A stretch of DNA of 64,000 nt from Meiothermus cerbereus DSM 11376 (GTDB taxonomy: Bacteria > Deinococcota > Deinococci > Deinococcales > Thermaceae), in contig NZ_JHVI01000001.1 in the NCBI RefSeq assembly GCF_000620065.1, forward strand, positions 62,001 through 126,000. Direction: 5' to 3'. How positions within the stretch are numbered: position 1 is the stretch's first letter; each line of letters starts with the position of its first letter. The position numbers were made by a program, and so were the translations under genes. Positions 30,705 to 51,385 of this stretch are shown here, one piece after another. The notes below the pieces were generated by a model. The model worked only from the letters and a program-made list of their open reading frames with translations. It made no database searches and had not been told where the DNA came from.

Positions 30705-33320
30705 TCAGGAAAGCCGGGCCAGGTTTTGCCGGATGCGCTCGAGCTGGGCCTGGTTCTCGGCCAGCCGCTCCCGCTCGGCCTGCACAATAGCCGGGTCGGC
30801 CCGCTCCACAAAACCAGGGTTAGCTAGCTTCTTCTGCCCCTGCTCAACCTGCTTTTCCAGCTCGAGCAGCCGCTTGCGCTGGCGTTCCAAAAAACTCGAC
30901 AGGTCGCCCTCGGGCTGGAGGTACACAGTGGTGTTGGCGGTCACCTGAGCGATGGCCTTCTGGGGCATCCCCAGCGCAGGCTGGGCTTTGCTAAGAAAGC
31001 GGAACAAAGACAGGTTATCCATCACCAACTCGGCCCCTGGCCCGTCCAAATGCACCACGATCTCCTGCTGGGGCGCAAGGCCCAGCTCGGCCCGCAGGTT
31101 GCGGGTGGCGGTAATGGTTTGTTGCAGGGTCTCGAAGGCTTTTTCGGCCTCGAGGTCGCGTTCCCCCACCTCCGGCCAGTCCTGCAGGGCCAGCTGCTTG
31201 GTATCGCCGGTCAGGGCTTCGTAAAGCTCGGAGGTGATGAAGGGCATGATGGGGTGCAGCAGCTTGAGCAGGGCCGCTAGGGTAGACTCCAGGGTCTGCA
31301 AGGTGGCCCGGTTGCCCTCGCGCAAGGCCGGCTTGGCGGCCTCCAGGTACCAGTCGCAGAACTCGCTCCAGACCAGCTCGTAGACCAGCCGGGCGGCGCG
31401 GCCCAGGTCGAAGGCCTCATAAGCCTCGGTAATCTCGGCGATGCCCCGGCTAAGGCGCGAGCGCATCCAGCGGTCGGCCAGGGTCAGATCCTGGCCTTTG
31501 GCCTCGGGCACCTGGCGGAGTGCGTCCTTGTTCATCAGCACAAACCGCGCGGCGTTGTAGAGCTTGTTGGCAAAGTTGCGCCCCTGCTCGTAGCGCCGCT
31601 CGTCGTGGCGGATGTCCTGCCCGCCGGTGGCCAGGTAGTCCCAGGCGAAGCGGCAGGCATCGGCCCCGTATTTGTCGATGAGCTCGAGGGGGTCGATGCC
31701 GTTGCCCTTGCTCTTGGACATCTTCTGGCCCTTGGCATCGAGGTACAGCCCGTGCAGCACGATGGTGTGGAAAGGGGCCTGGCCGGTGAACTGGTAGCCC
31801 GACATCTGCATACGGGCCACCCAGAAAAAGATGATGTCGTAGCCCGTGACCAGCACATCGGTGGGGTAGAACTTCTGCAGGTCGTCGGTAGCATCGGGCC
31901 AGCCCAGGGTGGAAAAGGGCCACAGCGCCGAGGAGAACCAGGTATCAAACACATCCTCATCGCGCCGCAGCTTGAGGTGGGCGTAGCGGGGGTCCTGGTC
32001 GCAGTCGAGGTCGGGGTTGGAGGGGTCGGGCACGTAGATGTTGCCCTCTTCGTCGTACCAGGCCGGAATCTGGTGGCCCCACCAGAGCTGCCGGGCGATG
32101 GCCCAGTCCTTGATGTTTTCCAGCCAGTCGCGGTTGACCTTTTCCCAGCGCTCGGGTACAAAGCGCATCTCGCCTCTGTCCAGGCCCGCCAGCACCTTCT
32201 CGGCCACCGGCTTCATGCGCACGAACCACTGCTCGAGCAACATCGGCTCCACCGGGGCTTTGGTGCGCTCGGAGTAGCCCAGGGCGATGGTGTAGTCCCG
32301 CACCTCGCGCAGATGGCCGGCTTCTTCCAGGGCCTGTACCACCCGCTTGCGGGCCTCGAAGCGCTCGAGGCCCCTAAAGGCCTCTGGCACCCGCTCGCCC
32401 GTAAGGCAGCCCTTCAGGTCAATCACGCTGGGCATCTCGAGGTTGTGTCGGCTGCCGATCTCGAAGTCGGTGGGGTCGTGGGCCGGGGTAATCTTCAAAG
32501 CCCCCGTACCAAAGTCCATCAACACCGCCTCATCGGCGACGATGGGGATGTAGCGCTCGGTCAGGGGAATACGGGCTTTCTGGCCCACCAGGTGACGGTA
32601 GCGTTCGTCGGCGGGGTTCACCGCAATGGCCACATCGGCAAAGATGGTCTCGGGGCGCACCGTGGCGATCTGGATCTCGCCGCCGCCCAAAAGGGGGTAG
32701 GCCAGGGTGTAGAGCTTGCCGGGGGTGGGTTCGACATTGACCTCGAGGTCGCTCACCACGGTCTGGGCCACCGGGTCCCAGTTCACGATGCGCTGGCCGC
32801 GGTAGGCCAGGCCCTGGTGGTAGTACTCGATGAAGGCCCGACGCACCGCGCGGGAAAGCCCCTCGTCCATGGTGAAGCGTTCTCGAGTCCAGTCGCAGGA
32901 AGCCCCAATGCGCCTGAGCTGGTGCAGGATGGCCCCCCCGTTTTTCTCCTTAAAGGCCCAGACCCGCTCTAAAAACTTCTCGCGTCCCAGGTCGTGGCGG
33001 GATAGCCCCTCCTGGGCCAGTTCTTTCTCCACCAGCACCTGGGTAGTAATACCGGCGTGGTCGGTGCCGGGCAGGTACAAAGCCTCGTAGCCCTGCATGC
33101 GTTTGAAGCGGATCAGGGTGTCGATGATGGTGTTGTCCAGCGCGTGCCCCAGGTGCAGGTTGCCGGTCACGTTGGGGGGTGGGATCACGATGGTAAAAGG
33201 GCCTTTACCCTTGTGGGCGTTGAGTTCGGGCTTGAGGGGATTGCGGGCCCATTCCTCGGCCCAGCGGGGTTCCACGGTCTGGGGGTCGTAGGTTTTGGGT
33301 AGTTCCTTAGGTTCAGTCAT
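30705..33320 (-). CDS. valS: valyl-tRNA synthetase
   Basis: The 871-residue class I enzyme charges tRNA-Val. The HIGH motif is HLGH at residues 56-59 within PPPNVTGNLHLGHALDN and the KMSKS motif is in KMSKSKGNGIDPLE. The CP1 editing domain (about 190-330) includes DFGTGALKITPAHDPTDFEIG. The C-terminal coiled coil (about 805-871) is present. ATG 33320 is used because GGAG lies about 6 nt upstream. It overlaps by 8 nt the stop of an unknown gene, and both lie behind a T-box leader whose specifier reads GUC. Confidence 0.97.
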   Translation of the reverse strand: MTEPKELPKTYDPQTVEPRWAEEWARNPLKPELNAHKGKGPFTIVIPPPNVTGNLHLGHALDNTIIDTLIRFKRMQGYEALYLPGTDHAGITTQVLVEKELAQEGLSRHDLGREKFLERVWAFKEKNGGAILHQLRRIGASCDWTRERFTMDEGLSRAVRRAFIEYYHQGLAYRGQRIVNWDPVAQTVVSDLEVNVEPTPGKLYTLAYPLLGGGEIQIATVRPETIFADVAIAVNPADERYRHLVGQKARIPLTERYIPIVADEAVLMDFGTGALKITPAHDPTDFEIGSRHNLEMPSVIDLKGCLTGERVPEAFRGLERFEARKRVVQALEEAGHLREVRDYTIALGYSERTKAPVEPMLLEQWFVRMKPVAEKVLAGLDRGEMRFVPERWEKVNRDWLENIKDWAIARQLWWGHQIPAWYDEEGNIYVPDPSNPDLDCDQDPRYAHLKLRRDEDVFDTWFSSALWPFSTLGWPDATDDLQKFYPTDVLVTGYDIIFFWVARMQMSGYQFTGQAPFHTIVLHGLYLDAKGQKMSKSKGNGIDPLELIDKYGADACRFAWDYLATGGQDIRHDERRYEQGRNFANKLYNAARFVLMNKDALRQVPEAKGQDLTLADRWMRSRLSRGIAEITEAYEAFDLGRAARLVYELVWSEFCDWYLEAAKPALREGNRATLQTLESTLAALLKLLHPIMPFITSELYEALTGDTKQLALQDWPEVGERDLEAEKAFETLQQTITATRNLRAELGLAPQQEIVVHLDGPGAELVMDNLSLFRFLSKAQPALGMPQKAIAQVTANTTVYLQPEGDLSSFLERQRKRLLELEKQVEQGQKKLANPGFVERADPAIVQAERERLAENQAQLERIRQNLARLS

Positions 33321-34155
33321 GGTTGCTCCGGGGTGACAGGTGGTATATTTGTTTTTCGTCCTGGAAGCTGGCTTCCTCGTAAGCCACCCCAACCACCCTG
33401 GTATTTTCGTCAAAGGTGTGGCTCCAGAAGCCCACGGTCAGGCGGTTGCCCTCGAGGCTCACCGTACCTACCGCTATTTCCTTCCACCCGTCTTCATCTT
33501 CGTCTTCGTCGTCATGGTCGAGGTCGCCTTGATCCAATTCTTCATCCACTTCAAAGTCTTCTATGCCGAGGAGCTCATAGTCGCCTTCGTCCAGGTCGTC
33601 CAGGTCGTCATCGTCCTCCTCGAGGTCGTCCAGGTCAATCGCGCTGAGGGTACAGACCTGACCCACCAGGCTGCGGACGGGGTTGTTGGGCTGACCGAAG
33701 CGGGTGCTGAACTCCGGACGGAAGGGGGTGTATTCGATGAGCGCCACCAGCATGTACTCGCCCAGCTCCCATTTGCACTCCAGCAAGGGCGGCAGCGGCT
33801 CGTCCCGGTCGGGGTCGTGGTCGGGCGGAGGGGTGGCGATGGGCGCGTTGAGCAGCTCGACGACCATCCGCTTGCGTGCCTTGCCACTAACCTCTATGGG
33901 TGCACCTCGGCCCAAGAAATCTTCCATCTTCCAGTGCTTGAGGCGGGACTTCAGCTCGCCAAGCGCTTCCTCGAGGCTATCCACAATCCGCATGGCATCG
34001 CCCCTTTGCAAGAAGTACCAGCCGGGATACTCCTTGGATTCCACGGCTGGGATTTCCTTCCCCAGAAGCTTGAAGAACCGGGGCGTCCGGCTCAGCCACA
34101 GCAGGCCGGGCTCGTAGTGGGGCTCGAGCTGCCATTCTTTAGGGATGCTGTTCAT
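33313..34155 (-). CDS. unknown acidic protein co-transcribed with valS
   Basis: The 280-residue protein has no domain I recognise. An N-terminal half with tryptophan-rich stretches (KEWQLEPHYEPGLLWLSRTPRFF) leads to a very acidic run at about residues 174-223 (mostly Asp/Glu), then a beta-rich end (VGTVSLEGNRLTVGFWSHTF). ATG 34155 has AGGAGG 6 nt upstream. The stop lies 8 nt inside valS, so valS translation is probably coupled to it. It is the first gene after the valine T-box, so its level should follow tRNA-Val charging. A link to tRNA or protein synthesis is inferred only from this position. Confidence 0.75.
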   Translation of the reverse strand: MNSIPKEWQLEPHYEPGLLWLSRTPRFFKLLGKEIPAVESKEYPGWYFLQRGDAMRIVDSLEEALGELKSRLKHWKMEDFLGRGAPIEVSGKARKRMVVELLNAPIATPPPDHDPDRDEPLPPLLECKWELGEYMLVALIEYTPFRPEFSTRFGQPNNPVRSLVGQVCTLSAIDLDDLEEDDDDLDDLDEGDYELLGIEDFEVDEELDQGDLDHDDEDEDEDGWKEIAVGTVSLEGNRLTVGFWSHTFDENTRVVGVAYEEASFQDEKQIYHLSPRSNHD

Positions 34156-34273
34156 GTAACCTCCTGCATATCGCCCAAATTGATACCGCATCAAGCTCTT
34201 ACAGCCCGAAGCGGTGCATTGACTAAATCATCCTTGGCGTTGTGTCTCATCCATTGTTCCTTCATACCTCACT

Positions 34274-34554
34274 TGTAAAACAAAAACGCCCCTGCAGACT
34301 TGGCTGCACGGACGAGGGCTTTCCCCGCGGTACCACCGCGCTTCCTGAAGCACCGATTCCAGGCGCTTCAGGCACTCTAACGTGCTGTATCGGGCACCCC
34401 CGGCAGGCTCTACGCTCCCGTAGGAGTTTCTTCCTGCTGGCTCGCGGGCGACGTTCGGTTTGTGCCGTTCCCAGATGCCCTCTCAGCCTGTGGGGCACCC
34501 TTTCTGTGGGGGCAGCAAACCTACTCTTCCCGGTCTACGCCTAATGGCATTATA
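34274..34554 (-). ncRNA. T-box riboswitch leader (valine specifier GUC) with promoter and terminator
   Basis: Reading the minus strand: a TATAAT -10 box (34554-34549), a Stem I region with GGAAGAGTA and AGGCTGAGAGGGCAT, a specifier-like GAACGTCGCCC with GUC at 34452-34450, the conserved T-box GGTGGTACCGCG (34337-34326), and an intrinsic terminator with an 11 bp stem containing one mismatch (34314-34304 with 34297-34287) followed by a T-rich tract (34286-34274). Uncharged tRNA-Val would stabilise the antiterminator and allow transcription of the acidic-protein gene and valS. T-boxes are known in the Deinococcus-Thermus phylum. The specifier fits the downstream synthetase. Confidence 0.88.
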
Positions 34555-34637
34555 CAGCAATCCCAAGGGCCTTTGGATCGGCCCCCAAAGGCCAGTAATG
34601 GCGTGCCGAACTGCGGTCAGGTGGATTCGGCAAGCGC

Positions 34638-34781
34638 CTAAAAGGCCTGGGTTAACTCCAGAACGAGCCAGCCCAAGAAGAAAACCGCCGAGAATACCGC
34701 TATGGCGTAGCGTACAGAGGTCTTATCAGCTGCACTGCGGCCAAAAATGCTTTTGAGGAGGTTTGGGTTGCGGCTGGCCAT
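34638..34781 (-). CDS. single-pass membrane miniprotein (47 aa)
   Basis: An open frame of 47 codons from ATG 34781 encodes MASRNPNLLKSIFGRS followed by a polar stretch and one membrane helix (about residues 25-42, YAIAVFSAVFFLGWLVLEL). AGGAG lies 8-9 nt upstream. It begins 17 bp after the stop of the diguanylate cyclase gene and runs in the same direction, so the two may be one transcript. No family is recognised. Confidence 0.6.
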   Translation of the reverse strand: MASRNPNLLKSIFGRSAADKTSVRYAIAVFSAVFFLGWLVLELTQAF

Positions 34782-34797
34782 GGGGCATCACTCCTTT

Positions 34798-35475
34798 TTA
34801 GTAATACATTCCGGGGAAGGTTTGATTGCGGCCTGAGCTTTTGGCCTCGGCCTGAAAGCGGTCGGCGCGGGCCAGTACGGCCTGAGCGGTGGCTTCGTCG
34901 TCGCGGCTGGCAAAGCCCAGGCTGATGGTTACCTTAAGTTCGGGGTGGAGCTGGTTCCAGGGGTATTTCTGCACCGACATACGCAGCCGCTCGCACACCC
35001 CAAAAGCCCGGTCGCCGGTGATGCCACGCAAAATCAGGGCAAACTCCTCACCTCCGAGCCTTCCGGCCACATCTGAGGCGCGCAGGGCTTTGCGCGCCAG
35101 TTGTCCGATGCGGCGCAAGACCTCATCGCCGGTGGACTGGCCAAAGCGCTCGTTTATGGCCTGGAAGCCATCCAGGTCAAAGCTGACCACTGTAAAAACT
35201 TCGCCGCTGGCAAAAACCCGCTCGAGGGCCTTTTCAAAAGCAACTTTGCCCGGCAGGCCGGTCAGTGGGTCATCGGCTTCAATTCCATAGCCCTCCAGCA
35301 GGGGGCTACGGGCATTGATCAGGCTATGGTTGCGTTCTTTTACCAAGCGCTCTACCGACTCCAGAATATCCTTTAGCGAATCGAGGCTGCTGCTGGACTG
35401 TGCAATCTGATTACGCATCTGCTCGAGCATTTGCAGCAGTTTAATATCTTCATCACGCAGCTTTTCCGTGCTCAT
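34798..35475 (-). CDS. diguanylate cyclase (GGDEF domain)
   Basis: The 225-residue cytoplasmic protein starts with a helical/coiled-coil segment (about 1-55) and ends in a GGDEF domain with DDPLTGLPGKVAFEKAL, FDLDGFQAINERFG and an active-site RLGGEEFALIL. It should make cyclic di-GMP from GTP; no membrane segment or clear sensor is present. The start is set at ATG 35475, which lies 10 nt after a TATAAT box, while the longer upstream frame looks non-coding. It is divergent from mrp. Confidence 0.85.
   Translation of the reverse strand: MSTEKLRDEDIKLLQMLEQMRNQIAQSSSSLDSLKDILESVERLVKERNHSLINARSPLLEGYGIEADDPLTGLPGKVAFEKALERVFASGEVFTVVSFDLDGFQAINERFGQSTGDEVLRRIGQLARKALRASDVAGRLGGEEFALILRGITGDRAFGVCERLRMSVQKYPWNQLHPELKVTISLGFASRDDEATAQAVLARADRFQAEAKSSGRNQTFPGMYY

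Positions 35476-49442: not shown

Positions 49443-51385
<1,943 letters not shown>

Follow-up and report, generated by a model that had tools for sequence, protein, structure and literature searches.

A valine T-box leader ahead of an orphan gene and valS in Meiothermus cerbereus, and its relatives in Deinococcota

The T-boxes of tyrS and glyQS in Bacillus subtilis are the standard examples of the class I type that attenuates transcription. T-boxes before ileS, leuS and valS have been discussed (PMC2494555), and the Thermus/Deinococcus group is among the T-box carriers whose T-boxes have been entered in RegPrecise (PMC3766115). Wels et al. (2008) found two T-boxes in three Deinococcus/Thermus genomes, located before the isoleucine and glycine ligase genes of D. 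radiodurans (PMC2494555). Here we describe a T-box in a 64,000-nt stretch of the Meiothermus cerbereus genome, referred to as the window, where it lies on the minus strand upstream of an uncharacterised gene and valS.

The leader shares with class I T-boxes (RF00230) the AGUA and GAA motifs of Stem I, a specifier codon, Stem II, Stem III, the core GGTGGTACCGCG, a UGGN bulge, an antiterminator opposed to a terminator with a T-run, and a synthetase gene downstream. It differs from the standard cases in that it is GC-rich, scores below the Rfam cut-off and belongs to an operon whose first gene is uncharacterised. It resembles the Firmicutes valine T-boxes before valS in its specificity and target, whereas the phylum is another one and a passenger gene separates leader and valS. 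The isoleucine and glycine T-boxes of D. radiodurans are of the same phylum and the same mechanism class, but that survey gives no valS T-box for the phylum (PMC2494555) and valine T-boxes were found here in about 41 of 111 Deinococcota genomes. Our literature searches found nothing relevant on valS T-boxes in Meiothermus, Thermus or the phylum, although an earlier description may exist, and nothing on T-boxes together with Nudix genes; TBDB may list the present leader. The kind of control is known, its gene content and spread in Deinococcota are poorly described, and the membership and the operon content are new. The mechanism expected here is textbook; the interest of the locus would lie in the many leaders below the standard cut-off and in the recurring passengers.

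Identity and specificity of the valS leader

The first-pass annotation had described a valine T-box ahead of valS with a TATAAT box, a Stem I-like region, a GUC specifier, the T-box core and a terminator with a T-tract. All of these elements are present on the minus strand (Table 1), and the assignment is upheld by a full-length model match, the specifier, homology and covariation. RF00230, the Rfam T-box model, matches the minus strand at 34546-34305 with 80.9 bits and an E-value of 7.7e-18, and all model positions (1-219) are covered. The match is significant but falls under the curated gathering score of 93, and for this reason nothing is reported when the window is scanned with Rfam at default settings. 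The fold energy of the leader is below that of shuffled sequences (z -2.7); we consider homology, rather than this comparison, to be the real evidence. In every other member of the family that was searched, Thermus excepted, a GUC-bearing leader likewise lies ahead of valS. In an alignment of 23 valS leaders (22 from Thermaceae and one from family f4), RNAalifold finds compensatory changes in 26 of the 62 consensus pairs, mostly in Stems I, II and III.

The Rfam alignment places GUC in the specifier loop, as had been proposed, and this specifier is invariant in 23 of 23 aligned valS leaders. In valS leaders L194 and L199 it was unreadable by the search pattern used. The genome carries a matching tRNA-Val with anticodon GAC (G000:C7), in which A73 precedes CCA, and the resulting ACCA end is complementary to the UGGU bulge of the antiterminator. 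The two other T-boxes of this genome behave likewise: the glyS T-box, which serves as an internal control, has the bulge UGGA and a tRNA-Gly with U73, and the ileS T-box has UGGU and a tRNA-Ile with A73. At all three T-boxes the specifier agrees with the downstream synthetase (valS-GUC, ileS-AUC and glyS-GGC). We therefore class the valS leader as an ordinary valine T-box that attenuates transcription.

Table 1. Features of the valS operon and its leader in window coordinates, with the two other T-boxes of the genome
Feature	Position	Strand	Basis or remark
-10 element TATAAT of the leader	34549..34554	-	sequence; most of the 23 valS leaders have a TATAMT-like hexamer at this distance
Leader RNA of the valine T-box, full extent of the Rfam match	34305..34546	-	RF00230, 80.9 bits
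Stem I, including its apical region and the AGUA/GAA motifs of the specifier loop	34439..34541	-	Rfam alignment; compensatory changes, RNAalifold consensus
AGUA motif	34525-34522	-	sequence
Specifier codon GUC (valine)	34450..34452	-	directly after GAA-N of the specifier loop, Rfam alignment
Stem II	34403..34437	-	RNAalifold consensus
Stem III	34344..34372	-	both sides of a pair changed in up to 13/23 sequences
Antiterminator with T-box bulge UGGU (34335-34332)	34306..34341	-	11 pairs kept in 23/23 sequences
T-box core GGTGGTACCGCG	34337-34326	-	sequence
Intrinsic terminator hairpin and T-run TTTTTGTTTT	34277..34314	-	10/11 pairs, 6-nt loop, -16.0 kcal/mol
24-codon ORF MKEQWMRHNAKDD...	34191..34265	-	after the terminator
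Uncharacterised gene, 280 aa, first gene of the operon	33313..34155	-	acidic disordered stretch; RBS AGGAGG before ATG
valS, valyl-tRNA synthetase	30705..33320	-	Pfam PF00133, PF08264, PF10458
ileS T-box (L002)	G000:C14:55789-56025		specifier AUC
glyS T-box (L003)	G000:C17:2193-2421		specifier GGC

A consensus scan found no clear -35 element to go with the TATAAT hexamer. Just upstream of this promoter, a 47-codon ORF (window 34781-34638, minus strand) with a hydrophobic stretch and an RBS-like AAGGAG might encode a small membrane protein.

Expression platform and operon

The terminator consists of a hairpin (34314-34287) and a T-run (34286-34277) on the minus strand. The antiterminator (-15.7 kcal/mol) and the terminator (-16.0 kcal/mol) have 8 nt in common and are therefore mutually exclusive, which bears out the attenuation-type platform that had been suggested for this leader. 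Among the 23 sequences, 93.9% of cells in the terminator are paired, compared with 33-51% for slid partners, and two terminator pairs are changed on both sides. The antiterminator gives no covariation evidence because its pairs hardly vary across the 23 leaders. Folded as a whole, the leader has the terminator hairpin in its minimum-energy structure, which is what the absence of tRNA would lead one to expect and is neutral on the response to tRNA. Downstream, the uncharacterised gene lies between the T-box and valS in one operon as annotated: the two genes are co-directional and the start of valS overlaps the end of its neighbor by 8 nt.

We propose, with high confidence, that a class I T-box with a long Stem I responds to tRNA-Val(GAC) and thereby governs transcription of the operon formed by the uncharacterised gene and valS. 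Under valine shortage, uncharged tRNA-Val would pair with the leader at two places, through its GAC anticodon at the GUC specifier of Stem I and through its ACCA end at the UGGU bulge. The antiterminator would be stabilised in this way, and RNA polymerase would read through into both genes. Once tRNA-Val is charged, the antiterminator's 3' strand would instead pair into the terminator and transcription would stop near 34277. The tRNA binding, read-through and valine response in this scheme are expected by analogy with other T-boxes.

Termination is the best reading over translational control because of the conserved antiterminator and terminator and the compensatory changes in the valS leaders. 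Were the leader to act on translation, its 3' hairpin would hide a ribosome binding site. Such a platform appears to exist in Deinococcota, as an alternative hairpin in valS leaders L085, L026 and L192 pairs the Shine-Dalgarno sequence GGAGGAGG with CCUCGUCCGC just before the start codon; this suggests translational rather than transcriptional T-box control at these loci of the same phylum. In M. cerbereus, however, the 3' hairpin is rich in GC, lacks a Shine-Dalgarno sequence and has TTTTTGTTTT after it, and the ribosome binding site of the uncharacterised gene lies about 110 nt beyond it, which makes a translational mode very improbable here.

The region past the terminator bears on two other alternatives to simple attenuation by the T-box. 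The uncharacterised gene might in effect escape the T-box, both it and valS being driven by a second promoter located between the terminator and this gene or inside the gene. The 121 nt that separate the T-run from the start of the gene leave enough space for one, and the content between T-box and valS differs among relatives; on the other hand, the genes are co-directional and overlapping, and no sigma-70-like promoter was found in 34150-34800, which is weak evidence as the same scan misses the leader's own promoter. On balance we regard a second promoter as unlikely. The same interval holds a 24-codon ORF that could be a working leader peptide and attenuate the operon at a second level. It comes with an RBS-like GTGAGGT and stops shortly before the uncharacterised gene, but it contains only two valine codons, and the small ORF found in the nearest relatives (20-44 aa) is conserved neither in length nor in sequence, being unrelated beyond its first codons. 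The ORF begins with M-K-E-Q where the Nudix gene of genome G034 begins with M-R-E-Q. The leader-peptide reading was rejected as the main one on account of this lack of conservation and the Nudix-like first codons, and we judge it very improbable; from the four codons, the ORF is probably what remains of a Nudix gene that has been lost.

T-boxes in the genome and in Deinococcota

Control by a T-box is not, as had been claimed on the grounds that tyrS lacks one, specific to valS: the genome contains three T-boxes, those of valS, ileS and glyS. The tyrS gene (window about 49605-50387) indeed has no T-box, yet this says little. Nor did the data support fewer T-boxes among the relatives of Thermus: at E<=0.001 one was detected in 103 of 111 Deinococcota genomes. 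In only 14 of these does a T-box exceed the Rfam cut-off, a possible reason for their apparent rarity in the phylum. Control of synthetase genes by tRNA sensing would thus be widespread in Deinococcota and largely missed by the standard cut-off, and the leaders of thermophiles may offer stable material for structural work.

The genomes with valine T-boxes fall into three groups. Within the family, each of the 23 members outside Thermus has one at valS, and so do 15 genomes from other families. In G005-G007, a GUC T-box stands before Nudix genes; in G006 and G007, valS follows on the same strand after 2-3 kb. Each of the 27 genomes of genus g4, which we infer from gene content to be Thermus, has one T-box; in those read it is the ileS T-box, and no valS T-box was found in this genus.

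In family f5, inspection by eye placed a T-box before an apparent thrS (L007). At two further loci of this family (L005 and L031), also identified by eye, the T-box precedes what looks like a secreted alpha/beta-hydrolase or peptidase-like gene, which would be an unusual target.

Genes between the T-box and valS

The less expected part of the finding is what lies between the T-box and valS. The distance from T-box core to valS ranges from 71 to 1241 nt across the 23 family members. The slot holds nothing sizeable in G027, G029, G031, G032, G035, G036 and G041. It is occupied by the orphan protein, that is, the product of the uncharacterised gene, in M. cerbereus (G000) and in G026, G028, G030, G038, G039, G040 and G043, with a divergent copy in G071; by one or two Nudix domains in G023, G024, G025, G033 and G037; and by a Nudix domain followed by the orphan in G034 and G042. 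Outside the family, the slot contains the orphan (G003), two Nudix domains (G001) or a methyltransferase (G109). The Nudix and methyltransferase assignments are from Pfam and were made on representatives.

The orphan protein is 64-78% identical to its counterparts in eight relatives of the same genus. Its near relatives are in M. taiwanensis and M. hypogaeus and the next genus is Calidithermus, so that the organism groups with Meiothermus. A search of the genome contigs with this protein recovered only such near relatives, in Meiothermus and Calidithermus, and no match was found in Pfam-A, NCBIfam or PDB sequences. An iterated search with a profile of 12 members, in contrast, detected a homologue in all 27 g4 genomes. 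At the seven loci checked, this homologue lies ahead of valS in the same orientation, and an additional locus (L121) had no valS match within its stretch. The acidic orphan protein is kept before valS in most Thermaceae, Thermus included. As it precedes valS in g4, where no valS T-box was found, the link between orphan and valS is independent of the T-box. In L122-L128, the gap from the orphan to valS varies by some hundreds of nucleotides.

The predicted structure of the orphan protein is of fair quality, with a pLDDT of 80 and residues 180-221 disordered. Foldseek returned no match at E<=0.001. When mainly residues 147-279 were compared, the C-terminal barrel resembled PH/EVH1-like domains at a middling level (best Z 6.5, rmsd 3.4, 72 residues aligned). 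Given this score and the Foldseek result, no function was drawn from the similarity.

The orphan gene is a passenger of the operon, and its link to the synthetase is conjectural. One tentative and rather doubtful idea is that the valine T-box of Deinococcota controls, besides valS, a shared stress or quality-control cargo. The orphan and the repeatedly recruited Nudix hydrolases would then be partners of ValRS; they might, for instance, clear a by-product that the idle synthetase makes, such as Ap4A, or bind ValRS or tRNA-Val. Regardless, the recurrence of the orphan family and the Nudix hydrolases in the slot provides a testable lead on proteins that may work with valyl-tRNA synthetase. At L021, L022, L024, L033, L034, L059, L073, L183, L164, L174 and L186, Nudix hydrolases of one domain, or of two to three domains fused together, follow immediately on a GUC T-box and stand ahead of valS, in part at a distance of some kilobases.
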